A stretch of 28,279 bases of DNA from a virus. The stretch covers positions 1 through 28,279 of the IMG/VR virus record IMGVR_UViG_3300042465_005697; one strand, given 5' to 3'. This document shows positions 293 to 28,244 of this stretch, one piece after another (within the stretch, counting starts at the first letter, position 1; every line of letters starts with the position of its first letter). The notes below the pieces were generated by a model. That model had not been told where the DNA came from. It did not search any database and saw only the letters and a program-made list of their open reading frames with translations. The translations under genes and the position numbers were made by a program.

Positions 293-952
293 ATGAAATC
301 GTTAATTAGAAGAGTATTACTAGAAGAGACCAAAGAACGTGATTATAATAAGATGCTTAAACTTGCGACAAACTATATTAAAAATGTGGGTCTAAATGGT
401 TTATGTAATGTTAAATTGGTTAAAAGTGATGTAGATATTATTGGTGTAATATTTACTCAGGGACATATTGGAGATACTAAATTACATAATTTGGAAGGGA
501 TATTGAAAAAAATATTTCACATTAGTTTTATATTAGTTGAGTATTGGAAAAGTAGTTGTTCGGAATTTGATGTATTACAGTTGGATGAAGGACGTATTGT
601 TGGGAAAATTCTAAAGGAGGAAATAATGGAAAGCGTTAGAGACAGATTGGTCTTAAAGTGGTTAAACAAGGAGTTTGGTGATTTAACTGAGGTGGTTAGG
701 GATGACAGAACATTTTATGTTGATAAGGACCGAAAACCGTTATTTTTCTATTACCAAGATTTAAAAAATGGGTATGTTTATGTAAATAACAAAAGAATTT
801 GGGTATTTTTTAAAGACATTTTTGGTCTGAAAAAATTGCAAACAAAGGAGATACTGAAGGTGTGGTTGGACCAGACCTATAATTTGAGGGGACTCACACC
901 GTATATAGATCGTTCACCATTTCCATTAAATTGGAACAGACCTATAATTTAA
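293..952 (+). CDS. Leader-A protein with two modules, 219 aa
   Basis: The protein begins with the A-type leader MKSLIRRVLLEET, whose L-x-E end fits the proposed capsid-targeting/cleavage signal. The body has two parts. Residues about 15-90 resemble the small alpha/beta module of the gene at 2208. Residues about 115-219 carry strands and a W/F-rich segment ending in a KILKVWLDQTYNL-like helix, similar to parts of the genes at 17340 and 23614. Between them (about 104-112) lies a second leader-like stretch, VGKILKEEI, so the gene may be an old fusion of two leader-bearing genes. It is the first gene of a run continuing to 2534, behind a TATATTTAT box. Function unknown. Confidence 0.8.
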   Translation: MKSLIRRVLLEETKERDYNKMLKLATNYIKNVGLNGLCNVKLVKSDVDIIGVIFTQGHIGDTKLHNLEGILKKIFHISFILVEYWKSSCSEFDVLQLDEGRIVGKILKEEIMESVRDRLVLKWLNKEFGDLTEVVRDDRTFYVDKDRKPLFFYYQDLKNGYVYVNNKRIWVFFKDIFGLKKLQTKEILKVWLDQTYNLRGLTPYIDRSPFPLNWNRPII

Positions 953-964
953 AATAATATAAAA

Positions 965-1429
965 ATGAAGGAATTAATTAGACATATATTAAAGGAGGAA
1001 ACATCATTACATACCAGATTATTAAAAATGATTAATAATGGTGATTTTTTAACTGCAATTAGATCTGTTGGTGGTTATGGTAATTTAAGAAAGATAATGA
1101 AGGGAATTGACTATCTTTCTAAGGATGTTATGGTTGATACGATTAAAGGGGTTTTGGAAGGTAAAGGGTCTCTTGGTCTTTATGAATTGGGGATAACTCC
1201 AATAACCATAAGAACTATTGGTAACGAAGAACATCATATTGAAGCAATATCGGACAATGGTCTTATTATTGATGTTTATGTTGATTATGATTTGGATGAT
1301 GGTGATGAAACTATTGATAGTTATAGTTTGAGTTATGAGGATATTAAAAGAAATGATTTATTTGAGTTATTTGATGCTATAATTGAATATTATGAGGATT
1401 ATAGTGATGATGAAAACGATCATATGTGA
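965..1429 (+). CDS. Leader-A protein with VGG module, 154 aa
   Basis: The protein starts with MKELIRHILKEET, the most typical A leader. Residues about 17-50 form a helical module with the pattern G-x3-A-x3-VGG-x2-NLRKIM that recurs in the genes at 1429, 3701 and 10136. The rest is an acidic alpha/beta domain ending in a very Asp/Glu-rich tail. It lies 12 bases after the previous stop, and its stop overlaps the next start (TGATG), which suggests translational coupling. No known family is recognised. Packaging in the virion is inferred only from the leader. Confidence 0.8.
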   Translation: MKELIRHILKEETSLHTRLLKMINNGDFLTAIRSVGGYGNLRKIMKGIDYLSKDVMVDTIKGVLEGKGSLGLYELGITPITIRTIGNEEHHIEAISDNGLIIDVYVDYDLDDGDETIDSYSLSYEDIKRNDLFELFDAIIEYYEDYSDDENDHM

Positions 1430-2211
1430 TGAGAGAATTAATTAAACATATATTAAAGGAGGAAACAATTGACTTGTCGCAAAGTCTTATGAGACTTTTT
1501 GAAAAAACATTAATTAAACAGAATAGTGATGAATTATGTTCTATATCTGTGGAACAATTGGGTAAACATTATTCTGTTACTTTATTTATTAAAATTGGTG
1601 TTTTTACAAATGTAAGAGAGAAATTGATGAATGATGCTTGGAATATGGTTTATGATGTTACTGGTAAGTCTTCTGCGATATACCAAAAGGATTGTGAAAA
1701 AAAAGATAACATTAGGGAAGAAACTGATCAAGTAGAGGATAATAAATTATCGTTGAAGAATAAGTTAAAAACCATTAGAGATAATTTCGGGATTGAACAT
1801 GCAATTAAGATTACTGGTGGGCTTGAAAATTATGTTAAAATATTTTTTAATAGTAATTTAAAGGATTACTATAAAGAAAGTGGTATTGAACCATACAGAA
1901 TATCTTCAGAACCCAACTTATTTATTGATGACTTAATTGTTCAGTCGTTAGAATTACCTGATGTCTCACCAAAAGAAAAAAGTTTATATAATTTTGTTTG
2001 GGAGAGTGGAGGTACTAAATATAGATTCACGGCAAGATTATATTTGGTTGAATATGCTAGTGGGATAAAAATGTGGAGAGTTGTTGGGTCTAGTGGTGAT
2101 TCGGGGTTTGGTTATAGTTATATAACAAAAAAAAACACATTAGGAAAAAGAGCAAGAATGCAGATATTCAAACAGGTAATAGATAAATTAAAACTTGACG
2201 ATTATAAATGA
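1429..2211 (+). CDS. Leader-A two-module protein, 260 aa
   Basis: The likely start is the ATG at 1429, overlapping the previous stop as TGATG. A GTG one codon upstream is possible but less likely. The N-terminus MRELIKHILKEET is an A leader. Residues about 15-90 form one alpha/beta module. After a charged linker (about 90-105), residues about 106-140 repeat the helical module with A-x3-ITGGLENYVKI seen in the genes at 965 and 3701. A strand-rich C-terminus (about 180-250) has a G/S-rich segment. It is coupled to the next gene by an ATGA overlap. No function can be assigned. Confidence 0.8.
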   Translation: MRELIKHILKEETIDLSQSLMRLFEKTLIKQNSDELCSISVEQLGKHYSVTLFIKIGVFTNVREKLMNDAWNMVYDVTGKSSAIYQKDCEKKDNIREETDQVEDNKLSLKNKLKTIRDNFGIEHAIKITGGLENYVKIFFNSNLKDYYKESGIEPYRISSEPNLFIDDLIVQSLELPDVSPKEKSLYNFVWESGGTKYRFTARLYLVEYASGIKMWRVVGSSGDSGFGYSYITKKNTLGKRARMQIFKQVIDKLKLDDYK

Positions 2212-2534
2212 AGGAATTGATTAGACATATATTACAGGAAGATGTTAATCGTAAGTTGCTCAAACCTATTAAAAACTATGTAAATGGGATTATTCAACAT
2301 ATGGATGAACTGAAAGGTGAAGTATGTGAAGTTCTGGTTCAGATGGATGGTGATGTAATTGTTATTGATCTTTATGTTAATGATGAACATTACGAATTAT
2401 TGGATCAGGAGTATTCGTTGTATAATGTTAGTAGAAAAATGGACTACAATATTAGTAAAACGTTCGGAATAAAACGAAATAAATTAATTACTTATATTGA
2501 AAAATGTTCCACAAAAAGAGAATATTACGATTAA
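2208..2534 (+). CDS. Leader-A small alpha/beta protein, 108 aa
   Basis: The start overlaps the previous stop (ATGA at 2208-2211). It opens with the leader MKELIRHILQED, ending in L-Q-E. The body is one compact module: helix (KPIKNYVNGI), then two strands (CEVLVQMDGD, VIVIDLYVN), then a helix. It resembles the first module of the gene at 293. It is the last gene of the run starting at 293. Unknown function. Confidence 0.75.
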   Translation: MKELIRHILQEDVNRKLLKPIKNYVNGIIQHMDELKGEVCEVLVQMDGDVIVIDLYVNDEHYELLDQEYSLYNVSRKMDYNISKTFGIKRNKLITYIEKCSTKREYYD

Positions 2535-2591
2535 TAACAAATTAATTTATTATCAACGCACAATATATATAATTGTAATGAAATAATTTAC

Positions 2592-3700: not shown

Positions 3701-4486
3701 ATGAAAGAACTGATTAAACAGATCATCAAGGAAGAAACTTCCACACAAACAAAATTAATGACTTTAATTAAAAAATTTGGTGTTGATTATGGCGCCAAGG
3801 CGGTTGGTGGGTATGATAGACTGACAAAAATAATGGAAGGAACCGATTTTTTGTATGTTAAACTTGATGTTAGTCCTGAATATATTCATCATTATCTTAG
3901 TGGTAATAGAAGATGGGGTAAAAAAACATTATATGAGGTGATATTAGAGGATCCGTGGGAAATACATTATTGGAGTGAATATGATGTTGAAAATTTAATG
4001 GACGATATTGATGAGGTAAATTTAAATAACATTAGGTCAATATTATCCGAAGATAATGATGAAGATTTAAGTGATGTATCTATTGATAATCTACTTGAAT
4101 ATGACACATTTGGTCATATAACTGATGCGATAAACAACGCAGCAAATACTGTTGATGGCGATGCGTATGGTGATTATTTATATAATCAATTAAAAAAGGC
4201 GTTTGAGGAATATGGTGGTGAAGTATACTCTATGGACGATGAGGGTGTTACGTTTAGCGTTAATTTATCAAAATATTTAAAGGATCTAACTGATGAAGAA
4301 TATGGATACTATCGTGATGTGTGTCAGGATAATTATGTATGTATGTTTAATGAAATGGTATATGATGATGGAGGAACAATTGATAAACCAGAACCTTACT
4401 TTGATGAAAATTGGTATAATTATGATCTTAATAAGACTCAATTTAACGAGATATTGTATGAAAACCTATCGGAACATTTAAATTAA
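3701..4486 (+). CDS. Leader-A acidic protein with VGG module, 261 aa
   Basis: It starts MKELIKQIIKEET (A leader, I-K-E end). Residues about 17-50 carry the helical module with GVDYGAKAVGGYDRLTKIM, a close relative of that in the gene at 965. The remainder (about 55-261) is strongly acidic and aromatic, with many Asp, Glu and Tyr and repeated DDxD runs. It may contain two similar strand/helix units. Four bases separate it from the next gene. Highly acidic composition would fit a DNA mimic or a counter-ion-binding protein, but this is speculation. No family recognised. Confidence 0.8.
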   Translation: MKELIKQIIKEETSTQTKLMTLIKKFGVDYGAKAVGGYDRLTKIMEGTDFLYVKLDVSPEYIHHYLSGNRRWGKKTLYEVILEDPWEIHYWSEYDVENLMDDIDEVNLNNIRSILSEDNDEDLSDVSIDNLLEYDTFGHITDAINNAANTVDGDAYGDYLYNQLKKAFEEYGGEVYSMDDEGVTFSVNLSKYLKDLTDEEYGYYRDVCQDNYVCMFNEMVYDDGGTIDKPEPYFDENWYNYDLNKTQFNEILYENLSEHLN

Positions 4487-4490: not shown

Positions 4491-5108
4491 ATGAAAGATA
4501 TAATTAGAAAGGCATTACACGAAGAGATCCAACGAAGATATAGGAGGGTTACACCTGAGTTATTGGATAGGTTAAGAAGATATTTATCAATCTTACTTAA
4601 AGGGGTTAAAATTACAACATTTGGACCCGAACACACTTATGGTGATATAAGAACTCAATTCTGTAAAAATAATCAATTTATTATGACGGTTATTTTTAAT
4701 GTTAAGGATCATGACGACGAAGAGGACTATCAGGATAATGCCTCGTTACATATAAGTAGAAGTATTTTATCACAGATTCTAAGTACTTTTAATATTAAAG
4801 AAAAATTTGCACTTGAGATTATTGCCGAATATGTAGAAGATAATTATGTTGAGGATATCTCAAAAGAATATGATCTTAACATTTATGATATTGATAGTTC
4901 CGATGTTAGCGATGTTAGTAAGTGTAGACAAAAAGTAATGGACAATCCTCCTGAGTTATCAAAAGAAGATATGATTGAGTGGTTGGTTATAAATCAAAAA
5001 ACCTTCCGTCGCCCTGAGATTGAACGATGGGATGATAAGGACCTTAGATACTGGTACCGTCGTGATTGGATCCGTAATAAAGCCAATGAATTAGGTTATG
5101 ATTATTAA
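4491..5108 (+). CDS. Leader-A protein, 205 aa
   Basis: It opens MKDIIRKALHEEIQRRYRR, an A-type leader ending in L-H-E. A strand-rich segment follows (VKITTFGPEHTYGDIRT, FIMTVIFNVKD), then a long acidic helical part. The C-terminus is basic and aromatic (RRPEIERW, LRYWYRRDWIRNKANELGYDY). It is the second gene behind the box at 3684 and is followed by a terminator at 5127. Function unknown. Confidence 0.75.
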   Translation: MKDIIRKALHEEIQRRYRRVTPELLDRLRRYLSILLKGVKITTFGPEHTYGDIRTQFCKNNQFIMTVIFNVKDHDDEEDYQDNASLHISRSILSQILSTFNIKEKFALEIIAEYVEDNYVEDISKEYDLNIYDIDSSDVSDVSKCRQKVMDNPPELSKEDMIEWLVINQKTFRRPEIERWDDKDLRYWYRRDWIRNKANELGYDY

Positions 5109-9301: not shown

Positions 9302-9799
9302 ATGAATCTAAAAGAATCTATAAGAAAGGTGTTAAGGGAAGAGGAGGATATTAACATATTTGGACATAACTATAATGAATTATTGGGTAATATAACAAGT
9401 TCTGATTCAGGATTAATGTATACTGATCCTGAAGATTTATTAAAACAAAAAATTAAGTTTCTTAAAAAAATTGAAAAGAAAAACTCAATAAAACTTTTTA
9501 GGGTTGTATTTTCAAAATCAAAAAAGAAAATTAACATAAAAAAGTTGGGTCACCACTATGTTTATGATATTGATGACTTTCACGAACAAATGTTAGATTA
9601 TTTATATTATAATGCAAAGAGAAAAGATTCAAGTTTAGAAGAAGATGATGTTTGGGTGGTGGAAATAGAAACACCAACAAGTAATATTGATTATTCCGAA
9701 ACAATATTAACATATTCATTACATCCAAAAGAGGATGAAATTACAATTAAATATCCTAATAATGTTAAAATAATAAATATTTCCAAATATTATGAATAA
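9302..9799 (+). CDS. Leader-A protein, possible ADP-ribosyltransferase-like fold, 165 aa
   Basis: Start chosen at 9302, right behind the TATATTTAT box; the longer frame crosses a terminator. The leader is MNLKESIRKVLREEE. The C-terminal half has an order of motifs like phage ADP-ribosyltransferase-type domains: KLFRVVF (Arg67), LGHHYVYD (82-89), a strand VWVVEIETP (117-125), then SNIDYSETI (128-136) and KEDEITI with Glu144-x-Glu146. Arg, aromatic/His patch and E-x-E are the three usual active-site elements, but the match is weak and could be fold-level only. If correct, it would parallel T4 Alt, a packaged ADP-ribosyltransferase with a cleaved N-terminus. It overlaps the next gene by 8 bases. 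Confidence 0.45.
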   Translation: MNLKESIRKVLREEEDINIFGHNYNELLGNITSSDSGLMYTDPEDLLKQKIKFLKKIEKKNSIKLFRVVFSKSKKKINIKKLGHHYVYDIDDFHEQMLDYLYYNAKRKDSSLEEDDVWVVEIETPTSNIDYSETILTYSLHPKEDEITIKYPNNVKIINISKYYE

Positions 9800-10139
9800 C
9801 CTACAGGAGAACATAAGAAAGGTGTTAAGGGAAGATAGTGGTCTTCTACCCATGATACGACGCAGAGTTACTCAGGACCATTTAGAGAAAGAATTTATAG
9901 AATCTTTAGATATGGCATCAGAAATGTTAGATATGAGTTATCAAAGAAGTGGTGGTGTTATGGGTTTAGATAGGTTTATAAGTATCACAATATCAATTTT
10001 AATGGATGGGATCCATTATGAAATATTTAGTACAACACCATTAGATTCCGAATGGTATGGTGATGTTACAAGAAGTTTAAAAAACTATTTCAGATCTAGA
10101 ATTATTACAAGACATTCCCAAATAACAAGAAAATTATGA
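9792..10139 (+). CDS. Leader-A protein, 115 aa
   Basis: The leader MNNLQENIRKVLREDS ends in L-R-E. The DNA encoding IRKVLRE is nearly identical in the genes at 9302, 9792 and 10136 (ATAAGAAAGGTGTTAAGGGAAGA in the first two). The body is an alpha/beta module with FISITISILMDGIHYEIF strands and a basic C-terminus. Coupled to both neighbours by overlap. Unknown role. Confidence 0.75.
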   Translation: MNNLQENIRKVLREDSGLLPMIRRRVTQDHLEKEFIESLDMASEMLDMSYQRSGGVMGLDRFISITISILMDGIHYEIFSTTPLDSEWYGDVTRSLKNYFRSRIITRHSQITRKL

Positions 10140-10555
10140 ACATAAAAGAGAACATAAGAAAAGTATTAAGGGAAGAGAGCTCCCTTAAAAAAAGTGTTAG
10201 AAACTTGGTAAAAACCAAGGGATTTTTTATGGCATCACAGATAGTGGGATCATTAGAAAGGGTTTATGAAATACTTAATTTAAAAGGAACGCAAGATGAT
10301 ATGATCTTTATTGTGACTGCGATATTAGATCACGACATAAAAGAAAAGATATGTAAATTTTTTATGGTAAAAACGTATCATTCTATAAAGATATATATTG
10401 AGGTACCTTCAGAAGATCCTGATAGTGATTATTTTGATCCTATAAATAAAAATGCACGTCGTAGGTTTGGGGATAAAATTAGTATTGCTATTTATGAATT
10501 AGGAAATAAACTTGTTAGGGGTCACGACATAAACATTCAACCAGGAAGTTGTTAA
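10136..10555 (+). CDS. Leader-A protein with VGS module, 139 aa
   Basis: The leader MNIKENIRKVLREES is followed by the helical module KTKGFFMASQIVGSLERVYEIL (about residues 24-45), the divergent fourth copy of the VGG module seen at 965, 1429 and 3701. The C-terminal part has strands (KTYHSIKIYIEVPSED) and a helix. It is the third gene behind the box at 9289. No function known. Confidence 0.75.
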   Translation: MNIKENIRKVLREESSLKKSVRNLVKTKGFFMASQIVGSLERVYEILNLKGTQDDMIFIVTAILDHDIKEKICKFFMVKTYHSIKIYIEVPSEDPDSDYFDPINKNARRRFGDKISIAIYELGNKLVRGHDINIQPGSC

Positions 10556-16592: not shown

Positions 16593-16982
16593 ATGAAAAA
16601 CGTTATTAAAGAAATCCTTAAAAGAACATTAGAGAACAAGACATATGAATCTTCATTTGAAGATGAGGTTGATAGTTGGGGTGGGGAAAGTGATTATGAG
16701 GAATATTCATTTAAGTATTACATTGAGATTGGAAAGGTAGTTGGTAAGGGTGGCGACACCGTTGCTGGAATCAATGTGGTTATTACAGATATTGATAGAG
16801 ATGGTGATGATTATTATTATGATTGGGTTGAATCTGATTATAGTGAAAACACTTGGTATATTGATAAACTGTCGGATATCGTATATAACGAAATATTATC
16901 TATGTATCCATTCTCCATTGTTCCCACTTTCTATGGTTATGATGAATATGATAATTTATCTGACAATCAAAAACATCTATAA
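16593..16982 (+). CDS. Leader-A-like acidic protein, 129 aa
   Basis: It begins MKNVIKEILKRTLENKTYE; the leader ends in L-E-N or T-L-E, a looser version of the A type. The body is strongly acidic and aromatic (many Asp, Glu, Tyr), with a strand hairpin KYYIEIGKVVGKGGDTVAGINVVITDI and a C-terminal Tyr/Asp-rich part. Single gene behind its own box. Unknown role. Confidence 0.75.
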   Translation: MKNVIKEILKRTLENKTYESSFEDEVDSWGGESDYEEYSFKYYIEIGKVVGKGGDTVAGINVVITDIDRDGDDYYYDWVESDYSENTWYIDKLSDIVYNEILSMYPFSIVPTFYGYDEYDNLSDNQKHL

Positions 16983-17015: not shown

Positions 17016-17312
17016 ATGAAATTTATTATCACCGAAAATCAAAATGTTTTGTTAAGACGATATCAAGTGGTTAAAGATGAGGTATTAAAACAAATGAATA
17101 TTTATAACCCTTGTTATTACAATGATTATTTTGATTTTAATAAATACAAATCGGATATGATACATTCCTCAATTAATGAGGTTGTGGGTGATTTGGGTAT
17201 TGACGAAAGATCATTGGATCATTTCAGGAATGAATTATCGTCTAACTTAAATGGTATCATTAGAAGATACTATAATAAATATCTTAAGGAGAACTGTCGT
17301 CCAAGATGGTAA
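17016..17312 (+). CDS. Leader-B protein of the RR/PC family, 98 aa
   Basis: Start chosen at the ATG 17016, five bases after the box; the upstream TTG lies inside the box. Leader MKFIITENQN is followed by VLLRRYQVVKDEVLKQM, then YNPCYY, a helical middle and an IIRRYYNKYLKENC end. The order leader, paired Arg, PC-aromatic, and a final Y-x-x-L...C defines a family also seen at 18416, 18777, 20066, 21520 and in the C-terminal part of 24765. All-helical prediction. Function unknown; inferred to be packaged. Confidence 0.8.
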   Translation: MKFIITENQNVLLRRYQVVKDEVLKQMNIYNPCYYNDYFDFNKYKSDMIHSSINEVVGDLGIDERSLDHFRNELSSNLNGIIRRYYNKYLKENCRPRW

Positions 17313-17339: not shown

Positions 17340-17720
17340 ATGAAAAACATCATTAAACAAATACTTACGGAAACTGTGATGGATAAACTCATTAGTGATG
17401 TATTCCCCCAACTTAATGATTTAAAAACCAAATCCAATCATAACGCAACAATATATGGTATAAACACGGTTTATTACAACAAAGATGATAAGGAATATTA
17501 CTTTAGGGTTTCTGAACCAAGAAATCAATGGGTTATGAATTGGGATACTGATAAAGTTGATGATAAAATGAGGCCAAAGACATTATGGGTTAATGGTGGG
17601 GTTTATGATGAAATATTAAATTATCTTCCCAATAAGGATATGATTTTAAAATGGTTTAATGAGAAGTATAATCAGGATGCTGAAATAATTATCCGTAGAT
17701 CCCCACTTAAAGGTAGATAA
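17340..17720 (+). CDS. Leader-A protein, 126 aa
   Basis: Start at 17340 behind the box; an upstream in-frame ATG would place the box inside the gene. The leader MKNIIKQILTET ends in L-T-E. The body has a helix (VMDKLISDVFPQLNDLK), strands (TVYYNKDDKEYYFRV, NQWVMNWDT), a KTLWVNGGVYDEI part and MILKWFNEKYNQ, then a basic end. The strand plus ILKWF helix layout resembles the C-terminal module of the gene at 293 and the gene at 23614. Unknown function. Confidence 0.75.
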   Translation: MKNIIKQILTETVMDKLISDVFPQLNDLKTKSNHNATIYGINTVYYNKDDKEYYFRVSEPRNQWVMNWDTDKVDDKMRPKTLWVNGGVYDEILNYLPNKDMILKWFNEKYNQDAEIIIRRSPLKGR

Positions 17721-17746: not shown

Positions 17747-17995
17747 ATGAAAAAAATTATAAAACTTACAGAATCAGATTTAACAAGGATTGTTAAACGT
17801 GTGTTAAAGGAAAGTTTTATGGAAGAAAGGGATTATGATTACATTATGGAAATCTTGTCAAACGACGGACTACATCCCAATCATGGGTGGTTTGATGAAT
17901 TTGAGAATTCAAGGTTCTATGATGAAGATATGACTGACGACAAATATGCCGAATCAATATATGATTTTATAATTCACGGAGATAACGAATATTAA
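17747..17995 (+). CDS. Leader-C small acidic protein, 82 aa
   Basis: It carries the longest leader type, MKKII then KLTESDLTRIVKRVL and KES. It holds two hydrophobic-x-Glu sites, L-T-E before Ser and L-K-E before Ser, either of which would fit a T4-type prohead protease. The remaining 58 residues are acidic and aromatic (ERDYDYIMEIL, GWFDEFENSRFYDED). The same leader DNA recurs at 25487 in front of an unrelated body. Single gene between box and terminator. Confidence 0.8.
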   Translation: MKKIIKLTESDLTRIVKRVLKESFMEERDYDYIMEILSNDGLHPNHGWFDEFENSRFYDEDMTDDKYAESIYDFIIHGDNEY

Positions 17996-18049: not shown

Positions 18050-18412
18050 ATGAAATTTATTATCACGGAGAGTCAGTCATTAAGAATGGGTAGGTTTATT
18101 ACTGAAGAGAATATTCCCACCGAAACTGACTACTTACATTGGAAGTTACCAAAAAAATTAATTGATGAATTGGGAATTGAATTATGGGATGATGGTGACT
18201 CGGCTTATATTGAGGAGATTCATTTTGACACAAGGAGGGTTTTTATTATGTTATTCCGCAATACCGATGGTATGGAAGAACTGTACGATCACGTTCCCAC
18301 CATACCAGGAGATTTTAAGGATAGTTATTTGATTCGTATTGATGATCTACCACAAAGTGTTAAAAACTTTATTTCAAGAAGATTAAAATATGATTATGCT
18401 AAACACCTATAA
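18050..18412 (+). CDS. Leader-B protein, 120 aa
   Basis: Start at 18050, behind the box. Leader MKFIITESQ, then SLRMGRFITEENIP, which holds a second I-T-E. The body is alpha/beta: LPKKLIDELGIELWDDGDSAYIEEIHFDTRRVFIML, then DLPQSVKNFISRRLKYDY. It does not belong to the RR/PC family. Three bases separate it from the next leader-B gene. Function unknown. Confidence 0.75.
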   Translation: MKFIITESQSLRMGRFITEENIPTETDYLHWKLPKKLIDELGIELWDDGDSAYIEEIHFDTRRVFIMLFRNTDGMEELYDHVPTIPGDFKDSYLIRIDDLPQSVKNFISRRLKYDYAKHL

Positions 18413-18415: not shown

Positions 18416-18751
18416 ATGAAAGTTATTATAACCGAATCACAATTTAATGACCTGTTCTTTAAACGGAGGTTTGCCCAAATTAATTCACTTGTTGAGGAAA
18501 AGATGGTTTATTACCCCCCTTGTGATTATACCTATGATCCGTATTATGGTTTTCACGAGTACTATGGTGATGTTCGTAACGCAGTTATTTACAATTTCAT
18601 TACTGAAAATATTCGGTTAGATTGGGAAGAAGGTAATATGAGTAAGATTGAAGATCTATCTGAAACTATGAATGAATGGATGTATGAAATATTCTATGAT
18701 AAGGTTAGGGGATATTTTGATGGGGTTATGGAAAAAGGTTGTGAAGAATAA
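18416..18751 (+). CDS. Leader-B protein of the RR/PC family, 111 aa
   Basis: Leader MKVIITESQ, then FNDLFFKRRFAQINSLVEEKM, PPCDYTYDPYYGFHEYYG, a helical middle and an end with a terminal Cys (MEKGCEE). It has the family's two conserved Cys. Coupled to the preceding gene. Unknown role. Confidence 0.8.
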   Translation: MKVIITESQFNDLFFKRRFAQINSLVEEKMVYYPPCDYTYDPYYGFHEYYGDVRNAVIYNFITENIRLDWEEGNMSKIEDLSETMNEWMYEIFYDKVRGYFDGVMEKGCEE

Positions 18752-18776: not shown

Positions 18777-19103
18777 ATGAAAATCATTATCACAGAAAAC
18801 CAAAACTATATTCTTAGACGACTTCAACAATTTATTGAGATTGTTGAAGATCGGATTTTTGAGTATGGAAGAGAAGATAATCCTTGGTGGTGTTCGGCTT
18901 TTTATACTCCCGACATATTTTTTAATAGTTTTAGATCTAATTCTATTGAAGATTTTATTAATCAGAATTGGGATTTCTTTCACAATGATTCTGAAATGGG
19001 TGGTTCCGATATGGATATTTCTATTTTGGATGATTTCATTGAAAACAACTACGGTAACCATCTAAGAAATCTTTGGGTGAGTAGGTGTCAAACCAAACGA
19101 TGA
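18777..19103 (+). CDS. Leader-B protein of the RR family, 108 aa
   Basis: Leader MKIIITENQN, then YILRRLQQFIEIVEDRIFEYG, a PWWC segment, then FIENNYGNHLRNLWVSRC at the end. Closest relative in the window is the leader-less gene at 20066 (FIRRLPSIINYVE, NKNYGNYLRNLYVRLC). Ends at a hairpin region shared with a convergent gene. Function unknown. Confidence 0.8.
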   Translation: MKIIITENQNYILRRLQQFIEIVEDRIFEYGREDNPWWCSAFYTPDIFFNSFRSNSIEDFINQNWDFFHNDSEMGGSDMDISILDDFIENNYGNHLRNLWVSRCQTKR

Positions 19104-19456: not shown

Positions 19457-19759
19457 ATGAAAATCATTATTACTGAAACCCAAGATAAACAAATTCGTTC
19501 ATTTATACGACGAATTGGTATTGCAGATGAAATTATTTCTAAATTGAACCCTAAAGACATTTGTAAATATTGGGACAATACCGAAAATGATGCGTTACAT
19601 TTTTCTGACGATATAATTGTGGGTATAGTTTGGGAAATTAATGATACCCTTAATATTAATTCGTACCACAATAAGGATCTATATAAATTTTTTGAGGATA
19701 TTGGTTATTACGACAAACTAATAAAATTTTTTCATAAATCTTTTGAATCATGCGAATAA
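19457..19759 (+). CDS. Leader-B protein, 100 aa
   Basis: Leader MKIIITETQ, then DKQIRSFIRRIGIADEIISKL, PKDICKYW, an acidic helical middle and an end with a terminal Cys (KSFESCE). It resembles the RR/PC family in order of elements but is more divergent. Overlaps the next leader-B gene by 10 bases. Unknown role. Confidence 0.75.
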   Translation: MKIIITETQDKQIRSFIRRIGIADEIISKLNPKDICKYWDNTENDALHFSDDIIVGIVWEINDTLNINSYHNKDLYKFFEDIGYYDKLIKFFHKSFESCE

Positions 19760-20073
19760 TCATAACCGAAACCCAAAAAGAATTATTGGATTATAATAGG
19801 TTATCTAACTGCGTTAAACGAAGATTGGAGCTTAATGTTCTTGATGAAACGGTTATATCTATTATGGACGAACTACCTGTTTCTAGATTCTCATTATCAA
19901 ATTTTGTTGATACGATAATAGATTACCTATATGAAAAACTTGAAACAATAAGTAATTTTGAAATATGTTGGGGAGATGAATCATATTACCAATTTTCAAC
20001 ATCAATTAAACGATTTTTAACCTCAAGATATGAGGACACAATAACAAAATATTATAAAACCTATTATGTTTGA
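19750..20073 (+). CDS. Leader-B protein, 107 aa
   Basis: Leader MRIIITETQ; body mostly helical (KELLDYNRLSNCVKRRLEL, LSNFVDTIIDYLYEKLETI) with a C-terminal RFLTSRYEDTITKYYKTYYV. It starts inside the previous gene and ends inside the next, a chain of three coupled genes behind the box at 19442. Function unknown. Confidence 0.75.
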   Translation: MRIIITETQKELLDYNRLSNCVKRRLELNVLDETVISIMDELPVSRFSLSNFVDTIIDYLYEKLETISNFEICWGDESYYQFSTSIKRFLTSRYEDTITKYYKTYYV

Positions 20074-20380
20074 TAGTCAAAATTTCTTCATTAGAAGATT
20101 ACCCAGTATTATTAATTATGTTGAATTGGACATTGAAGAGGTTGAATCCGATGAAAATGGACATAATATGTGTAGTTATTACACTATTGATAGTTTTGTT
20201 TATTCTTTTGTTCAGACAACGATGGATAAATTTGCTGACGATAACGTCCAATTCTTTAATAATCGTGATGGTATGGTGAGATTTACAGATGAAGAAAAGG
20301 AATTCTTTGTTAACATCATAAATAAAAACTACGGAAACTACCTTAGAAATTTATATGTTAGGTTGTGTGGGCATAAATAA
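20066..20380 (+). CDS. RR-family paralogue that has lost its B leader, 104 aa
   Basis: The body matches the gene at 18777: SQNFFIRRLPSIINYVELDI against NQNYILRRLQQFIEIVEDRI, MCSYY, and NKNYGNYLRNLYVRLC against ENNYGNHLRNLWVSRC. However, the start is MFDSQN where relatives have MKIIITE(S/N)QN, so the hydrophobic I-I-I-T-E part is missing. The gene is otherwise intact and overlaps the previous one by 8 bases. If the leader is a packaging signal, this protein should stay in the infected cell. Confidence 0.75.
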   Translation: MFDSQNFFIRRLPSIINYVELDIEEVESDENGHNMCSYYTIDSFVYSFVQTTMDKFADDNVQFFNNRDGMVRFTDEEKEFFVNIINKNYGNYLRNLYVRLCGHK

Positions 20381-20403: not shown

Positions 20404-20892
20404 ATGTCTTACCCAATTAAATCTATTGAAAAAATCTTTAACACTCTTGGTCACCATAAGATTAAGGATTTATATGGTCTTGATTTAACTTTTAATATTG
20501 TTGATATTGAGGTACTTTCCAATATAATAAATATTAAAGTTAATTTTATTGGAGATTTACCCTATATATTTAGGAATCTAAGTGTTGGTGATGATGAGTG
20601 GAGTATAACTAGGTACCATGACCGTCAACATATTACAAAGATATTGGGAGATATTTTAAAATATGTTGGTATAAACAATGGTTTTGTTAGTATGGAATAT
20701 GAACCTAACACCAACGAATGTTCTAAAACGGGATATTTAACTGGTGTCGGTTGGACTATATGTCTTGATAATGGAATGTTGGATCCATTCATGCCCGATA
20801 GACGTAAATTATTAAGTAATGCAATCTCAGGTAGATGGTGGGATAGTTTATCAACAAAAGATAAAAAGATGTTAAAATCTAATTTTGGATAA
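20404..20892 (+). CDS. Hypothetical protein without leader, 162 aa
   Basis: It starts MSYPIKSIEKIFNTLGHHKIKDLYG; no A/B/C leader even though it has a perfect late-type box. Strands LTFNIVDIEVLSNIINIKVNFIG, then a helix KILGDILKYVGI, then a Gly/Trp-rich C-terminus (GVGWTICLD, GRWWDSL). It shares one base with the next start (TAATG). A candidate non-packaged late protein; family unknown. Confidence 0.7.
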   Translation: MSYPIKSIEKIFNTLGHHKIKDLYGLDLTFNIVDIEVLSNIINIKVNFIGDLPYIFRNLSVGDDEWSITRYHDRQHITKILGDILKYVGINNGFVSMEYEPNTNECSKTGYLTGVGWTICLDNGMLDPFMPDRRKLLSNAISGRWWDSLSTKDKKMLKSNFG

Positions 20893-21503
20893 TGAAAATA
20901 ATAATAACTGAATCTCAAAAAGATAAATTATTTAACATCTTTAATAAGTTGTTAAATGATCTTATGGATAACATTAAGGTTGATTCTGAAGATTGGGGAT
21001 TGGGTGAGATGGACGAATTGGATGAGGTTAATTCTGTCGATCATATTGGCGTTGATAGAGTTGTTACCTTTGATGGTATTAAGGTTTATGTTAATCTATA
21101 TGTTAACAAGGAAAGGGATAGTTGGGATAATGTTTGGTCGGAGATTCAATATAGAGTTAATCAACATATACCCCACGCAAAGATTGTTTTAAACGATGTT
21201 ATTGTTGAACAGGAGATGGGATCTTTAAATGAATCTAAAGATAGAAACTTTATTAATCGCAGGATTCATTTAATTGATGACGAATTTAATAGGTCAATTG
21301 ATTTATTTAATCCGAGAGACTTTTTTGATTTTGATGACTACCAATTTTCATTGGTTAATTCCTCAATACATCGGGCAATGGCAGATAAAAAATCTTTTGG
21401 TATTACAAAGAAAGATAATCAATGGATTCCCACTTATGAACTTTTCCGTGATTATTTAAGGGATAAATATATTGATGAAATGAAAAAAAGATTTTATTTG
21501 TAA
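20892..21503 (+). CDS. Leader-B fusion protein with C-terminal RR module, 203 aa
   Basis: Leader MKIIITESQ; residues about 10-105 form an alpha/beta module (helix KLFNIFNKLLNDLMDNI, strands RVVTFDGIKVYVNLYVN). After LNESKDRN the rest looks like a RR-family body: FINRRIHLIDDEFNRSI ... LFRDYLRDKYIDEMKKRF. LNES may be a remnant leader, so this appears to be two leader-B genes fused in frame. About twice the length of single members. Unknown role. Confidence 0.75.
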   Translation: MKIIITESQKDKLFNIFNKLLNDLMDNIKVDSEDWGLGEMDELDEVNSVDHIGVDRVVTFDGIKVYVNLYVNKERDSWDNVWSEIQYRVNQHIPHAKIVLNDVIVEQEMGSLNESKDRNFINRRIHLIDDEFNRSIDLFNPRDFFDFDDYQFSLVNSSIHRAMADKKSFGITKKDNQWIPTYELFRDYLRDKYIDEMKKRFYL

Positions 21504-21519: not shown

Positions 21520-21864
21520 ATGAAAATAATAATAACTGAATCTCAAAATAAACTTCTATGGTTACGTAGAAGATTAGGTGTTCCTGAAATAATGGATACC
21601 TTAAAGGATATTGTTATTGAGGGTTTTGATTATACCGATCCTTGTGATTATGAAACTTATTATAGTTATGAAACTAACGTGGCAAATGATTCTGCAATAA
21701 CATTTATTAATTCATATATTGAACTTTATGGTGAAGAACATTTTGATTCAACTGAACTTGAGGGTTTTGTTCGTGAATTAGTTATTAGTAAGTACCGTCA
21801 CTTAATTAAAGGAGAATGGAGGAATCGTAATTGTAATGATGATGAATATGAATCGGATTATTAA
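21520..21864 (+). CDS. Leader-B protein of the RR/PC family, 114 aa
   Basis: Leader MKIIITESQN, then KLLWLRRRLGVPEIMDTL, TDPCDYETYYSYET, helical middle, end HLIKGEWRNRNC plus an acidic tail. The first 24 or so bases after the ATG are identical to the start of the gene at 20892 (atgaaaataataataactga...), pointing to recent leader copying. Function unknown. Confidence 0.8.
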   Translation: MKIIITESQNKLLWLRRRLGVPEIMDTLKDIVIEGFDYTDPCDYETYYSYETNVANDSAITFINSYIELYGEEHFDSTELEGFVRELVISKYRHLIKGEWRNRNCNDDEYESDY

Positions 21865-21877: not shown

Positions 21878-22249
21878 ATGAAAATTATTATCACCGAAAA
21901 TAAGATTGAATTGGCAATTATTAAGTATCTAAACACTCATTATAATGTTGATGAGATTCATTCTAACCCATTTCACGATGATTATGGTGATCCTACAGAT
22001 GATGCAATAGAATATTATAATGGAGACTATTTTGAGGATGACTACGGACCTTTCACATTATATAAGGAGTCTTATTGGGTAAATGATGATGATCCTAAAA
22101 AGGAATTATCACCATTATTAATAATTGAGGACGAGAGTTTTTATCAGAGTCTTAACTCTATGTTTGGACCATATTGGGAACCCGTATTTAAGAAGTGGTT
22201 TGAAGATAATTTTGGTGAAAAAATAAAAACTATTGAACTCACCCGTTAA
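21878..22249 (+). CDS. Leader-B acidic protein, 123 aa
   Basis: Leader MKIIITEN, then KIELAIIKYLNTHYNVDEI. The body is highly acidic and aromatic (FHDDYGDPTDDAIEYYNGDYFEDDYG), ending FKKWFEDNFGEKIKTIEL. It does not belong to the RR family. Seven bases separate it from the next gene. Unknown role. Confidence 0.75.
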   Translation: MKIIITENKIELAIIKYLNTHYNVDEIHSNPFHDDYGDPTDDAIEYYNGDYFEDDYGPFTLYKESYWVNDDDPKKELSPLLIIEDESFYQSLNSMFGPYWEPVFKKWFEDNFGEKIKTIELTR

Positions 22250-22256: not shown

Positions 22257-22451
22257 ATGGAAATCATTATAACCGAACAACAATATAGATCACTAAATGA
22301 GATGATTAACCTTGATATTAAGGTTGGTGATACATTGTTGGGTGGTAAATTTAAAAACAAGAAGGTTGTTGTTAAAAAAATCGGAAAAAATGATAAGGGG
22401 GATATTACAATTAACGGAAAACCGTTATTAAGGTTTAGAATAATTTCTTAA
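22257..22451 (+). CDS. Leader-B small beta protein, 64 aa
   Basis: Start at 22257 (MEIIITEQQYRSLNEM). After the leader comes LDIKVGDTLLGGKFKNKKVVVKKIGKNDKGDITINGKPLLRFRI, a compact beta-barrel-like unit. Small phage proteins with KVGDxxxGGxFKNKxVxVKxI...TING-LLxFR are familiar as uncharacterised proteins in large phages; this is from memory and not searched. The upstream frame start at 22233 lies within the previous gene. The core looks intact. Confidence 0.7.
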   Translation: MEIIITEQQYRSLNEMINLDIKVGDTLLGGKFKNKKVVVKKIGKNDKGDITINGKPLLRFRIIS

Positions 22452-23949: not shown

Positions 23950-24237
23950 ATGAAAATTGTTATAACAGAAAATCAACGTCACTTGTTGAGAAGACATAAG
24001 GAAATTGAAGATGAGATATATAGTCAATTACTGGGTTATGGATATCTTCCCCATAATCTTGAGAGTTTTATGGGTGAGATAACTTGGGATGTGGGATCAA
24101 CTCTTGCCGGTAAAATGATCCCTAACGTGGTTGGGGGTGACTATGTAACCTTAAGAAATCAAATCATCCACTACATTAGAAATAATTTTTATGATGAATT
24201 AAAAGAGTATTGGGAAAGTCGCCAACCAAGATATTAA
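23950..24237 (+). CDS. Leader-B protein of the RR family, 95 aa
   Basis: Leader MKIVITENQ, then RHLLRRHKEIEDEIYSQLLGYGYLP and a C-terminal NNFYDELKEYWESRQPRY. It keeps the paired Arg and the Y-x-x-L-x-x-x-W end of the family but lacks the PC motif and final Cys. Coupled upstream. Unknown role. Confidence 0.75.
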   Translation: MKIVITENQRHLLRRHKEIEDEIYSQLLGYGYLPHNLESFMGEITWDVGSTLAGKMIPNVVGGDYVTLRNQIIHYIRNNFYDELKEYWESRQPRY

Positions 24238-24243
24238 AGAAAT

Positions 24244-24416
24244 ATGAAATCATAGAAAACCAAAATTCTTTTATACGAAGAATTGAAATGATTGATGAAT
24301 TTTTAATGGAAGATTTAGATGTGATTGACCAAGATATTTGTGATTATAATTTTTTTTCATTATACTTTACATATGAATCACGAAAGAGGTTTAAGACAAA
24401 TTCAAAAAATATTTAA
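24244..24416 (+). pseudogene. Broken leader-B RR-family gene
   Basis: The expected start MKII(I/T)ENQN is disrupted: ATGAAATCATAG... reads Met-Lys-Ser-stop, while a different frame continues EIIENQNSFIRRIEMIDEFLMEDLDVI and CDYNFF. Compared with the gene at 18777 about seven bases are missing between ATGAAA and AGAAAACCAAAA. The body also stops early at 24416, and the next gene overlaps its end. The upstream TTG at 24210 could still start the frame, but without a proper leader. A sequencing indel is the alternative explanation. Confidence 0.65.
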
Positions 24417-24764: not shown

Positions 24765-25484
24765 ATGAAAAAAAAGATAATTGAGAAAATATTAACTTTA
24801 GTCCAACGAAAATATCCGTTTGTTAAAAATTTAAAGAGTTTAAAGACTAAATACAATTATGATACTTGGAGTGTACTTGTTGATAAAGACAAATACTTGG
24901 ATTATTTTAACGCTACTGAGGATATGTTGGATACTGATTTGGTTGTTGGGTATGTTGATAGATTTCTTCAAATGAAATATTGGGATAGTGATTTACAGAA
25001 TCTTGGAGCTGAGATTGATAAATATATTGGTGGTGTTATAAAAATAATTATTGGTTCATACCCCAAAATAAAAGATCTTGAATTTGAGAGTATCGGATCA
25101 TATTATATGGATAAAAAACAAAAACAAATGGAACATAATTTAAGTAAAATAATAAAGAGGGTCATTAAGGAATCCGAATTAACTCATTACGCAAGAAGGA
25201 TCCAAGAATTGAGGGATTTAATAAACAATCAAGTTGAGATGCAAGATCCTTGTAATTTTGAGGATGGTGATGAGTATGCTGATTTTTGTATCTCAACAGG
25301 TATGGGTTGGTTTTTTGGGTTTGATCCGTGGAGTGATACTGATTATAGTGATGACGAAGAAGTGGTTAGACCAACTAATCCTGATATTAGTGTTGACGAT
25401 TATAATAAAATAAATACTGAGATGACCAATGAGTTCTATGATGATCTTGTTGCGTTGTGGGATGAATATTCTGAAGAATGTTAA
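24765..25484 (+). CDS. Fusion: YPF-family domain + internal leader + RR/PC module, 239 aa
   Basis: Residues 1-115 are a YPF-family domain (KILTLVQRKYPFVKNLKSL, like the genes at 26708 and 14233). Residues 122-137 are MEHNLSKIIKRVIKES, a C-type leader in the middle of the protein, ending I-K-E before Ser. Residues 140-239 are a RR/PC body: HYARRIQELRDLI, QDPCNFEDG, FYDDLVALWDEYSEEC. Codon 122 is an ATG (25128) after an A-rich stretch, so it could also be an internal start producing a normal-size leader protein. Either a fusion or two products from one gene. Confidence 0.7.
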   Translation: MKKKIIEKILTLVQRKYPFVKNLKSLKTKYNYDTWSVLVDKDKYLDYFNATEDMLDTDLVVGYVDRFLQMKYWDSDLQNLGAEIDKYIGGVIKIIIGSYPKIKDLEFESIGSYYMDKKQKQMEHNLSKIIKRVIKESELTHYARRIQELRDLINNQVEMQDPCNFEDGDEYADFCISTGMGWFFGFDPWSDTDYSDDEEVVRPTNPDISVDDYNKINTEMTNEFYDDLVALWDEYSEEC

Positions 25485-25486
25485 AT

Positions 25487-25831
25487 ATGAAAAAAATTAT
25501 AAAATTAACTGAGTCAGATCTAGTTCGTATTGTAAAACGAGTTATATCGGAGGCAAATGTTGGATACGTTAAAGGAACTCGTGGGATTGAATCCGAAGTG
25601 TTTTCAAATGTATTAAAGAAATACATTGAGATTGTACCAGAAATGAAAGTCACAATTGAACCAATAATAAATTCAAACCCCCTTGAGGTTAAGTGGAAAG
25701 ATAGACAAATAATTAAGGATGCCTTTGGTAAAGTTGAGGAATGGTGTCACAATAACAACGATGATGTGTGTGGTGAAGTACTTGATTATACCGCAGGTGA
25801 TAGATCAACAATTGTAAATTTAATACCATAA
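25487..25831 (+). CDS. Leader-C protein, 114 aa
   Basis: Start at 25487, two bases after the previous stop. The leader is MKKII, KLTESDLVRIVKRVI, SEA, giving L-T-E before Ser and I-S-E before Ala; the latter is a classical T4-type cleavage site. The body (GYVKGTRGIESEVFSNVLKKYIEI, KVTIEPIINSNPLEVKW, IKDAFGKVEEWCHNNNDDVCGE) is unrelated to that of 17747, the other gene with this leader. Unknown function. Confidence 0.75.
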   Translation: MKKIIKLTESDLVRIVKRVISEANVGYVKGTRGIESEVFSNVLKKYIEIVPEMKVTIEPIINSNPLEVKWKDRQIIKDAFGKVEEWCHNNNDDVCGEVLDYTAGDRSTIVNLIP

Positions 25832-25896: not shown

Positions 25897-26490
25897 ATGG
25901 AAGAAAAAAAATTAAAAGAAGAACTTTTTAGAGAAATAAAAAGAAGAGGTCTAATGGAACAGGAAGATGATTCCGAAAATGAAACTGAAGAAGAAGGTGA
26001 TGGCAAATTGTATAAATTAAACAGTAAGACCATTAAAATCTTAACAGATAGAATTAAAGATGAGTACACCGCACACTATTTTTATAGAGCAGCAACGAAT
26101 TGGTGTAGAGATAAGAACTACAAGAAAGCTGCAGAATTTTTTAATAATGAGGCGGATGATGAATTAACTCACGCAAAGAAACTTCAAGAATATATGACAG
26201 ATTTTAATATCATCCCTGTCATCCCACAAGCACCGATTGATCATAAATTTGATGGTTTAATTGAAATTATTTATGGGGCATATAAAATGGAATTGGCATT
26301 GATGAAAGCATATAATGAAAATTCAAAAGATTTGTTCTCGGATGATATGACAACATTTGACTTCTTAGGTGAATTTAGAGAGATCCAAAAGGGTGCGGTT
26401 GTTGAATATAACGACTTAATTAACGGAAGTGAATTGGTCGACACCAAAGACAAATTCCAAGTATTATACTTTGAACAAACTTATTTCTGA
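25897..26490 (+). CDS. Ferritin-like (diiron four-helix) protein with N-terminal extension, 197 aa
   Basis: Residues about 40-180 fit a ferritin-like four-helix bundle: helix A with IKDEYTAHYFYRAATNW (Glu56), helix B with NNEADDELTHAKKL (Glu85, Glu89-x-x-His92), helix C with YKMELALMKAYNE (Glu132), helix D with FREIQKGAVVEYNDLI (Glu162 region). These are the usual iron ligands and spacing. The first 35 residues are an extra, charged extension: FREIKRRGLMEQEDD followed by an acidic linker. It contains L-M-E and resembles a packaging leader on a long arm. Likely iron storage or oxidative protection; location in the capsid is inferred only. Confidence 0.7.
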   Translation: MEEKKLKEELFREIKRRGLMEQEDDSENETEEEGDGKLYKLNSKTIKILTDRIKDEYTAHYFYRAATNWCRDKNYKKAAEFFNNEADDELTHAKKLQEYMTDFNIIPVIPQAPIDHKFDGLIEIIYGAYKMELALMKAYNENSKDLFSDDMTTFDFLGEFREIQKGAVVEYNDLINGSELVDTKDKFQVLYFEQTYF

Positions 26491-26694: not shown

Positions 26695-26702
26695 TATCTT
26701 TG
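26695..26702 (+). promoter_or_regulatory. Bacteroidota-type promoter (-7 box)
   Basis: TATCTTTG, 5 bases before the ATG at 26708; predicted leaderless. Confidence 0.65.
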
Positions 26703-26707
26703 TATTT

Positions 26708-27163
26708 ATGAATATGGAGATCACCGAAAAACAAGAAAAGGGTATTGAATTATTAATAAAAGGTTTAAGACGAAAGTTTCCTTTTATTCTTGGTGTGGAA
26801 ATTAGAGAAATAACGGAATTCCATATTTGGGTGGTTATTATCGTTGAATTTACTAGGTTTTTAAAATTCTATAATGTACCACCAAGTCGTTTCCATTTAA
26901 AATATGGGTTAGAAACTAGTAAAGAATATTTTGAGGGTTATAAAAACCCGGGATATTTAATGGGGTTAGTTGATGAAGACCATAAAGATGAATTTGGTAA
27001 CGAATATAACAATAAAATGGAGAATTTTTTGAGTGGGCTATATAACTCATTACCGGAAGAATATACACTACAATATAATGGTAGAGCCAATTTGATACAA
27101 ATATGGGGTTACCAAATAGAAGTAGATGTGGATGGAGAATTCCCCACCCACACCGATTCTTAA
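26708..27163 (+). CDS. YPF/FPF-family hypothetical protein, 151 aa
   Basis: It starts MNMEITEKQEKGIELLIKGLRRKFPFILGVEI; the helix then RKFPF-I-x-G-V is shared with the N-terminal domain of 24765 and the duplicated genes at 14233/14567. Strands WVVIIVEFTRFLKFY follow, then a long acidic/aromatic part ending in LIQIWGYQIEVDVDG. Although it contains I-T-E, it is behind a host-type promoter and is not counted as a leader protein. Its stop overlaps that of the convergent FKBP gene by 3 bases. Unknown function. Confidence 0.75.
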   Translation: MNMEITEKQEKGIELLIKGLRRKFPFILGVEIREITEFHIWVVIIVEFTRFLKFYNVPPSRFHLKYGLETSKEYFEGYKNPGYLMGLVDEDHKDEFGNEYNNKMENFLSGLYNSLPEEYTLQYNGRANLIQIWGYQIEVDVDGEFPTHTDS

Positions 27164-27585
27164 CCAATACTTATAATTTCCAAATCAAAGATTAGTTTTT
27201 TTCCTGATAACGGATGGTTAGCATCAAGGATAACTACCTCATCCTTAACTTCAAGAACTTTCGCATTAACAGGACCTTGTGGTGTCATTGCTTGTAACAT
27301 TTCGCCAGCTTGAACTCCTTCAGGAACTTGTGTTCTTGGAACTTCATTTACCATTTGATCATTTGGGTGACCATATGCCTCTTCAGGACTAATTTCTACA
27401 GTCTTCTTTTCACCGATTTCCATATCAATTAAACCATTTTCAAATCCTTTAATTAAAGATCCTTCACCCAATTTAACGGTGATAGGTTCTCTACCTTCAT
27501 CCAACGATGAGTCAAAAACTGAACCATCTTCCAATTTTCCTGTGTAATGTACTGTTACAACATCACCATTTTGTACTTTTCCCAT
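27160..27585 (-). CDS. FKBP-type peptidyl-prolyl isomerase, SlyD-like, 141 aa
   Basis: The N-terminal part GDVVTVHYTGKLEDGSVFDSS is the FKBP core start, with Y14, F25 and D26 of the active site. PITVKLGEGSLIKGFENGLIDMEIGEKKTVEI follows, and SPEEAYG leads into the inserted chaperone flap (about 72-120). The end DANHPLSGKKLIFDLEI is the SlyD signature. The His-rich metal tail of E. coli SlyD is absent. Expected role: proline isomerisation and folding help in the cytoplasm. Single minus-strand gene, convergent with 26708. It looks like a captured cellular gene. Confidence 0.9.
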   Translation of the reverse strand: MGKVQNGDVVTVHYTGKLEDGSVFDSSLDEGREPITVKLGEGSLIKGFENGLIDMEIGEKKTVEISPEEAYGHPNDQMVNEVPRTQVPEGVQAGEMLQAMTPQGPVNAKVLEVKDEVVILDANHPLSGKKLIFDLEIISIG

Positions 27586-27642
27586 ATTTTATTTGTTTTT
27601 TATAAGTGTAGAAATATTTTTTTGTAATGTAAAATGTTTTTG
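27586..27642. promoter_or_regulatory. Divergent intergenic region with promoters for the FKBP gene and 27657
   Basis: It is AT-rich. On the minus strand TACACTTATAAAAAAC lies about 20 bases before the FKBP start and may hold its promoter, but neither box type is clear. The plus-strand late-type box follows at 27643. Confidence 0.35.
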
Positions 27643-27652
27643 TAGTATTTAT
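27643..27652 (+). promoter_or_regulatory. Variant late promoter box TAGTATTTAT
   Basis: Four bases before the ATG at 27657. Confidence 0.6.
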
Positions 27653-27656
27653 TAAT

Positions 27657-28244
27657 ATGAATTCACCAAGTCGTAATAAAATTAAACAAATCTTAAGGGA
27701 AACATTGTTTTATACTCCATCGGAAAAAATGAAGAACTCAATGTTTAAGTTATGGGATAAACAAAAATCTAAAGGATTAAAGCCCGAGGTGAATACCGCA
27801 TTGGCAAAATCTATGGGATTACACAGTACCTCAATGTTGAATGATTGGGTTGTTGAGTGGTATGGTGGTGTTGACGTGGTGTTTGGTATGATTAAAGAAG
27901 ATTTAGACAACAAAACTTTTACTACAGATGAATTAGGTAGTATATATCACGTTAATATTGGTAATTATGATTTTACATTTGAATTAACTAACCTTAAAAT
28001 GCGTAACCAACGGTCTCGTGATCCAGACATTAGTGTTGATATGGAAATACTTGATGGTGGGGTTGAGTTAATGACCGATGGTGAATATTATGATCTGACA
28101 AGAATTAACGAACCTGGATATATTTATGATGATTTATTGTGGGAGATTAAAATGGAAATAAAAGGGATTATTGAAGAATTTGCGTGGAAAGTTATTGGTC
28201 AATATAGATTCAATGCCGATTCGATTAGTGTTGAACTTATTTAA
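27657..28244 (+). CDS. Leader-A protein, 195 aa
   Basis: The leader MNSPSRNKIKQILRET ends in L-R-E before Thr. Body: helical MKNSMFKLWDKQKSKGL, then SMLNDWVVEWYGGVDVVFGMIKEDL, which recalls the GG-containing helical module of 965 and 3701. A strand-rich centre (SIYHVNIGNYDFTFELTNL, DISVDMEILDGGVELM) and a C-terminal helix follow. Behind its own box, followed by another box at 28251. Function unknown. Confidence 0.75.
   Translation: MNSPSRNKIKQILRETLFYTPSEKMKNSMFKLWDKQKSKGLKPEVNTALAKSMGLHSTSMLNDWVVEWYGGVDVVFGMIKEDLDNKTFTTDELGSIYHVNIGNYDFTFELTNLKMRNQRSRDPDISVDMEILDGGVELMTDGEYYDLTRINEPGYIYDDLLWEIKMEIKGIIEEFAWKVIGQYRFNADSISVELI

Follow-up and report, generated by a model that had tools for sequence, protein, structure and literature searches.

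Exchangeable short protein tags in a phage genome with a T4-type head module as probable capsid-targeting propeptides

Introduction

In phage T4 the prohead protease gp21 cuts after L/I-x-E, and the internal proteins (IPI-III and Alt) carry a capsid-targeting sequence (CTS), as stated in PMC9026906. Here we analyze a set of short leaders with a similar end motif in IMG/VR virus record IMGVR_UViG_3300042465_005697. Bases 1-28279 of this 149,690-base record, a stretch of 28,279 nucleotides that we call the window, encode a long series of proteins that begin with one of a few such leaders (hereafter also tags) and continue in mostly unrelated bodies. When the leaders are considered together with the head genes of the same genome, it is likely that they are capsid-targeting propeptides, and that the arrangement is an enlarged and modular T4 capsid-targeting/propeptide system.

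The likeness to the T4 internal proteins lies in a short N-terminal propeptide, here of about 7-22 residues, that ends in (I/L)-x-E and precedes unrelated, fast-evolving and variable bodies, in a genome that also holds an S77 protease and a gp23/gp20 head module; as regards the T4 CTS itself, the comparison covers the end motif and the layout only. Unlike T4, about 45 genes are tagged rather than a few and there are at least five tag classes rather than one, while tags also stand at C-termini or inside fused open reading frames (ORFs). The cargo here includes ferritin and cell-wall enzymes, the bodies are not basic, and processing and ejection are predicted.

Phages of the phiKZ/SPN3US type offer a second comparison. 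According to PMC10052503, the SPN3US protease motif is A-x-E, most propeptides have 111-254 residues and about 80% of the head proteins are uncut. That paper also describes a diverged gp21-type protease, many head proteins, propeptides removed past a Glu-ending motif and several redundant sites per propeptide, all of which have counterparts here, the removal a predicted one. By contrast, the leaders studied here have 7-22 residues, end in I/L/V-x-E and are exchangeable, whereas the propeptides described there are not a common exchangeable tag; the leaders are not long propeptides cut past A-x-E.

The phage probably belongs to the clade of bS21-encoding phages, which have predicted Bacteroidetes hosts and genomes of up to 331 kb according to PMC9723584. 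This placement follows from a bS21 gene (PF01165; genome 88643-88828, L005:5644-5829) on the minus strand of the head module, between the portal and protease genes. A term search found leaders or packaged proteins nowhere stated in PMC9723584. A search of open-access papers for the leader strings turned up no earlier description, and we claim the absence of one no further than that.

Encapsulins bring ferritin-like cargo into an HK97-fold shell by means of a short terminal peptide, and a tagged ferritin in an HK97-fold phage head would be a parallel to them. The likeness is one of layout, with no homology claimed; unlike in encapsulins, the peptide is apparently removed by a protease, and the shell, a phage head, contains DNA.

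Results and discussion

ORFs were called mechanically across the whole record. A sequence-only reading of the window had proposed three interchangeable leaders on about 25 proteins. All 25 of these genes start with ATG at the positions listed there and contain [ILV]-x-E within residues 4-24; in 2000 shuffles 12.6 genes did so on average, and never more than 20. Across the genome's ORFs, 24 N-terminal but no internal pairs of 30-mers score 60 or more, and at a threshold of 40 the numbers are 66 and 4. Few related pairs were left in BLASTP once the first 24 residues had been removed; what most of these genes have in common is thus the leader. The leader profiles gave no matches in reversed decoy proteins and none in 1.05 Mb of viral loci drawn at random by means of a random 14-mer pattern.

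The proposed set stood up with one doubtful member (gene 16593) and proved too small. Within or at the edge of the window it also includes genes 26708, 28272 and the ferritin gene 25897, and for the whole genome we count 31 leaders with the A, B and C profiles, which are partly self-trained, or about 45 by eye when classes D and E and weaker A forms are included. The profiles also find the same leaders in related phages, and the copy of leader C suspected inside ORF 24765 is present from 25128 onward. Classes A, B and C are accordingly joined by at least two more, D (DDSEKxRILEMH...LxEQ) and E (NEIxRIKxLMG...NE), and by C-terminal versions. The classes are found together in leader loci: among the matches listed, loci selected solely by leader C yielded 30 leaders of other classes, 13 of A, 9 of B, 7 of D and 1 of E (Fisher 4e-11).

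The sequence-only reading made its case depend on a gp21-like prohead protease and capsid genes in the rest of the genome. Both are there. An S77 protease lies with TerL, a gp20 portal, an acidic scaffold and a gp23 capsid protein in a complete T4-type head module (Table 1), which removes the objection that the genome might lack such genes; the gene order is that of the cultured Flavobacterium phage immuto (host LMO8), whose head module is the closest one in culture. The first 60 residues of the capsid protein form a propeptide that ends QASFLINE↓A (an arrow marks the predicted cut). Of 20 relatives, 19 conserve this end as QAS-x-LINE plus A, T or S and the most distant one has LLNE↓S, with IVSE↓A at the corresponding site in immuto. 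When full-length and mature gp23 from the PDB are compared, the LINE↓A position aligns with the T4 cut after residue 65. The scaffold C-terminus is likewise conserved, as (L)IE↓SKTYENPQFLRMKDLM-x-KL, with the site LIE↓S. The likely specificity of the protease, read from the capsid propeptide (LINE↓A or S) and the scaffold site, agrees with the leader ends. Searching for leader C by a degenerate DNA pattern led to at least 119 viral loci; among the matches listed, nearly all copies are N-terminal, and the 106 distinct C leaders have Glu at P1 in 102 cases and I, L, V or M at P3 in 105. Residues downstream of the site are not conserved, and conservation ends at the Glu.

Related bodies with different tag classes retain (I/L)-x-E at the junction. 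Gene 18050 has leader B (...FITE↓E) and its orthologue in L094 has leader A, MKTNLKNIIKRVLNE↓E (...VLNE↓E); gene 28272 has leader B (...LVE↓S) and its counterpart in L048 leader C (...MVNE↓A); and gene 4491, with leader A, has a body relative in L107 with leader B. The family of gene 68664 includes one member (L375) with a complete A leader that lacks a tail; the others combine an M-x-(L/I)NE N-terminus with a C-terminal tail, Asn-Glu being invariant throughout. Tags at the C-terminus also occur in two protein families that carry leader C there, lacking its final Glu and keeping the inner LTE, and a protein in L025 has leader A at its N-terminus and leader C at its C-terminus.

The tail of gene 68664 in this genome, RIKDIMKKII, resembles the scaffold C-termini LRMKDIMSKIIK (RMKDIMSKIIK in relatives), and when all C-termini were compared blind with scaffold tails, it came out as the genome's top match (score 39). 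Scores of at least 28 were reached by 9 of 1244 C-termini from this genome and related loci, the prohead protease's own included, vs none of 1437 controls. The likeness of class E to the scaffold tail is a weak excess at N-termini and exceeds all controls at C-termini, for which alone it is upheld. On these comparisons, some tags probably mimic the scaffold's own docking peptide. The idea that leader C copies an N-terminal scaffold segment, EINQLVKESLSEQ, was dropped, as the match scores no better than the number of windows predicts. The protease itself ends in a conserved, scaffold-tail-like stretch (KSLDLMKKLxDYLGK in relatives), possibly its own targeting propeptide, and the scaffold-tail profile also picked out a possible E-type start without a Glu site, KIFTKIQDVMGIKNG, at window positions 13082-13876.

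Leader C is restricted to a clade. There are 3-17 copies per whole record in phages chosen by leader or ferritin (1 in one phage), whereas 29 random records have none, bar one marginal match. Bacterial and archaeal genomes totalling 257 Gb hold one true leader C; the other pattern matches lie inside unrelated ORFs or short frames. A tblastn search of cultured phages with a 23-mer and joined leaders, short queries of low sensitivity, found no leader C, and a motif scan of two of immuto's four segments found divergent leader forms. Virion mass-spectrometry data for immuto were looked for and not found in a paper on Baltic Flavobacterium phages, which does not name it. Of the leader-C records of 34 kb or more among the matches listed, 58 in number, 34 have S77, vs 6 of 29 random ones (Fisher 0.0007), and at 145 kb or more the figures are 11 of 12 vs 3 of 8 (Fisher 0.018); the p-values are optimistic, the records being partly near-duplicates, often fragments and not dereplicated. 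In two records (L065 of G028 and L292 of G121) the S77 match falls in a 632-residue open frame with two S77-like stretches; these phages have the C-terminal tag VIGGK.

We infer docking, cleavage, packaging and ejection from what is present in the sequence: the tags, their motif, the protease, the capsid site, tag exchange and clade restriction. While the head is assembled, the tag would dock its protein to the core or shell of the prohead; a cut by the S77 protease past (I/L)-x-E would then release the body inside the head and let the tag leave; and the freed body would travel in the virion, presumably to be ejected with the DNA.

Several observations weigh against this proposal. The C-terminal tags, the transglycosylase relatives L381 and L382, which lack the final Glu, and the ferritin extensions of L322-L325, which lack the (I/L)-x-E motif, mean that cleavage is not universal. 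The Glu of the inner LTE is invariant in C leaders (106 of 106 among the matches listed), although it lies within the tag. The tagged bodies have a median isoelectric point of about 5-6.6, whereas the T4 internal proteins are basic, and the muralytic cargo could occupy another part of the virion. A leader record of 200 kb, G074, gave no S77 match; a 322-kb record (G078) does have one, and its leader protein L106 looks the same as that of G074. Finally, leader C is missing from S77 phages of the random set; the presence of the protease thus does not entail the tag system, which characterises this clade rather than S77 phages at large.

The invariant inner Glu and the missing final ones would suit a scheme in which the tags direct proteins to the head, neck or tail of the virion and stay mostly uncut, with (I/L)-x-E as part of a docking helix. 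We regard this as unlikely, since conservation ends directly past the Glu, orthologues with different tags have only the (I/L)-x-E junction in common, the peptidase-like family of gene 68664 retains Asn-Glu though other parts of its leader are lost, and the same motif ends the capsid propeptide and marks the scaffold site.

More improbable still is that the leaders address proteins within the infected cell, to the membrane or the replication site, and play no part in the virion. It would fit that most bodies are unassigned and that several bind or cut peptidoglycan, but the tags terminate where the clade's own head protease is predicted to cut, one tail mimics the scaffold C-terminus, and leaders, in which a hydrophobic signal peptide was not seen, co-occur with the S77 head module.

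The claim that the bodies are unrelated holds for most of them: among the matches listed, the 175 leader proteins sort into 98 clusters by body. It does not hold for at least five genes with leaders B or C, which an iterated profile search joins in one fast-diverging family (17016, 18416 and 21520, and in 20892 and 24765 the second half); 18777 is linked by way of a relative in L033. Each copy sits shortly past (I/L)-x-E, whether of leader B, of the internal C leader (VIKE↓SELTHY) or of an internal SLNE↓SKDRN. Two apparently decayed copies lie in the same tandem array of B leaders: a body-like ORF at 20066-20380 starts MFDSQN where its neighbours read ITESQN, and the stretch 24210-24416 retains EIIENQNSFIRR and has no clear start. 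At gene 293, the body shares a domain of about 100 residues with the leaderless genome gene 72191 and weakly matches a C-leader protein in L061.

Synonymous codons in the leaders differ as often as expected in B (0.48 observed vs 0.47 expected) and nearly so in C (0.46 vs 0.50), being essentially randomised, so selection is on the peptide and not on its DNA; a DNA element as such is ruled out by this test. That the leaders merely mark one duplicated gene family, or 5' ends conserved for translation or recombination, is therefore scarcely credible: the diverged family and the slightly low codon variation of A (0.37 vs 0.48) would suit it, but the number of body clusters, the B and C codons and the tags at C-termini and within ORFs do not.

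If the leaders are capsid-targeting propeptides, their cargo is varied. Recognisable domains are ferritin, LysM, peptidoglycan (PG)-binding, lysozyme, OmpA and HD. The ferritin domain of 25897 (PF00210, E 1e-17) covers residues 46-175, and PDB ferritins align from about residue 41. Its relatives at 52 viral loci have varied N-terminal extensions that end in (L/I/M)-x-E followed by Q, A or S, or have no extension. Among ten large ferritin phages, this one included, the seven with a ferritin extension (one without a clear site) all carry leader C; it is absent from the three whose ferritin has a short N-terminus or one that lacks a site. The phage ferritins of L357, L358, L361 and L368 have no N-terminal extension at all. 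Relatives of the ferritin and of gene 45064 were not found in cultured phages.

Among the cell-wall enzymes, the tagged genome gene 67095 is a lytic transglycosylase (alignment match of 1.2e-9 to a solved transglycosylase). Gene 68664 is a probable M15-like peptidase by motifs seen by eye, on which the label rests, since its AlphaFold model is poor (predicted local distance difference test, pLDDT, 54) and Foldseek gave no match. A leaderless GH19/PG-binding protein at genome 33583 is the likelier lysis enzyme. At genome 40104-40718, an A-leader protein matches M91 weakly and contains HELKH, a motif like that of metalloproteases.

More tentatively, and with somewhat less than even confidence, we suggest that the tags form a general cargo-loading code, with several dialects, some of them copies of the scaffold tail, each docking on some partner in the core or shell of the prohead, placed at either protein end and freely exchanged among genes. 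Any gene could then become a head-packaged, injected protein, with tens of such proteins per virion. If the tags work as proposed, the proteins that these uncultured phages carry into cells could be read from sequence, information otherwise obtainable through virion proteomics alone. The leaders would be a readable label of the injected proteome, ferritin and cell-wall enzymes included, and about 100 unassigned gene families would become a testable class of packaged, probably early-acting proteins. They would also widen the set of packaging tags for Bacteroidota phages and hint at how targeting peptides originate, by copying of a scaffold docking tail.

Feature coordinates and further observations

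Table 1. Leaders and leader-like starts in the window, and head-module genes elsewhere in the genome (arrow, predicted cut; positions are those of the record)
Feature	Sequence	Position	Strand	Gene	Remark
Leader A	MKSLIRRVLLE↓E	293-325	+	293-952	
Leader A	MKELIRHILKE↓E	965-997	+	965-1429	
Leader A	MRELIKHILKE↓E	1429-1461	+	1429-2211	
Leader A	MKELIRHILQE↓D	2208-2240	+	2208-2534	
Leader A	MKELIKQIIKE↓E	3701-3733	+	3701-4486	
Leader A	MKDIIRKALHE↓E	4491-4523	+	4491-5108	
Leader A	MNLKESIRKVLRE↓E	9302-9340	+	9302-9799	
Leader A	MNNLQENIRKVLRE↓D	9792-9833	+	9792-10139	
Leader A	MNIKENIRKVLRE↓E	10136-10174	+	10136-10555	
Weak leader-like start	MKNVIKE↓I	16593-16613	+	16593-16982	doubtful; sole site IKE at residue 7
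Leader B	MKFIITE↓N	17016-17036	+	17016-17312	body in diverged family
Leader A	MKNIIKQILTE↓T	17340-17372	+	17340-17720	
Leader C	MKKIIKLTESDLTRIVKRVLKE↓S	17747-17812	+	17747-17995	
Leader B	MKFIITESQSLRMGRFITE↓E	18050-18106	+	18050-18412	sites at residues 7 and 19
Leader B	MKVIITE↓S	18416-18436	+	18416-18751	body in diverged family
Leader B	MKIIITE↓N	18777-18797	+	18777-19103	body family via L033 relative
Leader B	MKIIITE↓T	19457-19477	+	19457-19759	
Leader B	MRIIITE↓T	19750-19770	+	19750-20073	
Leader B	MKIIITE↓S	20892-20912	+	20892-21503	internal SLNE↓SKDRN, then second body copy
Leader B	MKIIITE↓S	21520-21540	+	21520-21864	body in diverged family
Leader B	MKIIITE↓N	21878-21898	+	21878-22249	
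Leader B	MEIIITEQQYRSLNE↓M	22257-22301	+	22257-22451	sites at residues 7 and 15
Leader B	MKIVITE↓N	23950-23970	+	23950-24237	
Internal leader	MEHNLSKIIKRVIKE↓S	25128-25172	+	inside ORF 24765-25484	downstream part is body family
Leader C	MKKIIKLTESDLVRIVKRVISE↓A	25487-25552	+	25487-25831	
N-terminal extension	MEEKKLKEELFREIKRRGLME↓Q	25897-25959	+	25897-26490	precedes ferritin domain
B-like leader	MNMEITE↓K	26708-26728	+	26708-27163	by eye
Leader A	MNSPSRNKIKQILRE↓T	27657-27701	+	27657-28244	
TerL		83996			outside window
gp20 portal		86073			outside window
S77 prohead protease		89409-90137			PF03420 E 4.5e-23 at 89577-89996; PHROG head maturation protease 2e-40
Acidic scaffold		90501			outside window
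gp23 capsid protein		91944			PF07068 1e-70

Two further features lie outside the window. The protein encoded at genome 31221-33440 (L002:3022-5241) has PKD and SprB repeats and a CHU_C type IX secretion signal, and apparently uses the type IX secretion system of the host. The region at genome 52.2-65.3 kb (L003) holds 24 tRNA genes, for nearly all amino acids.

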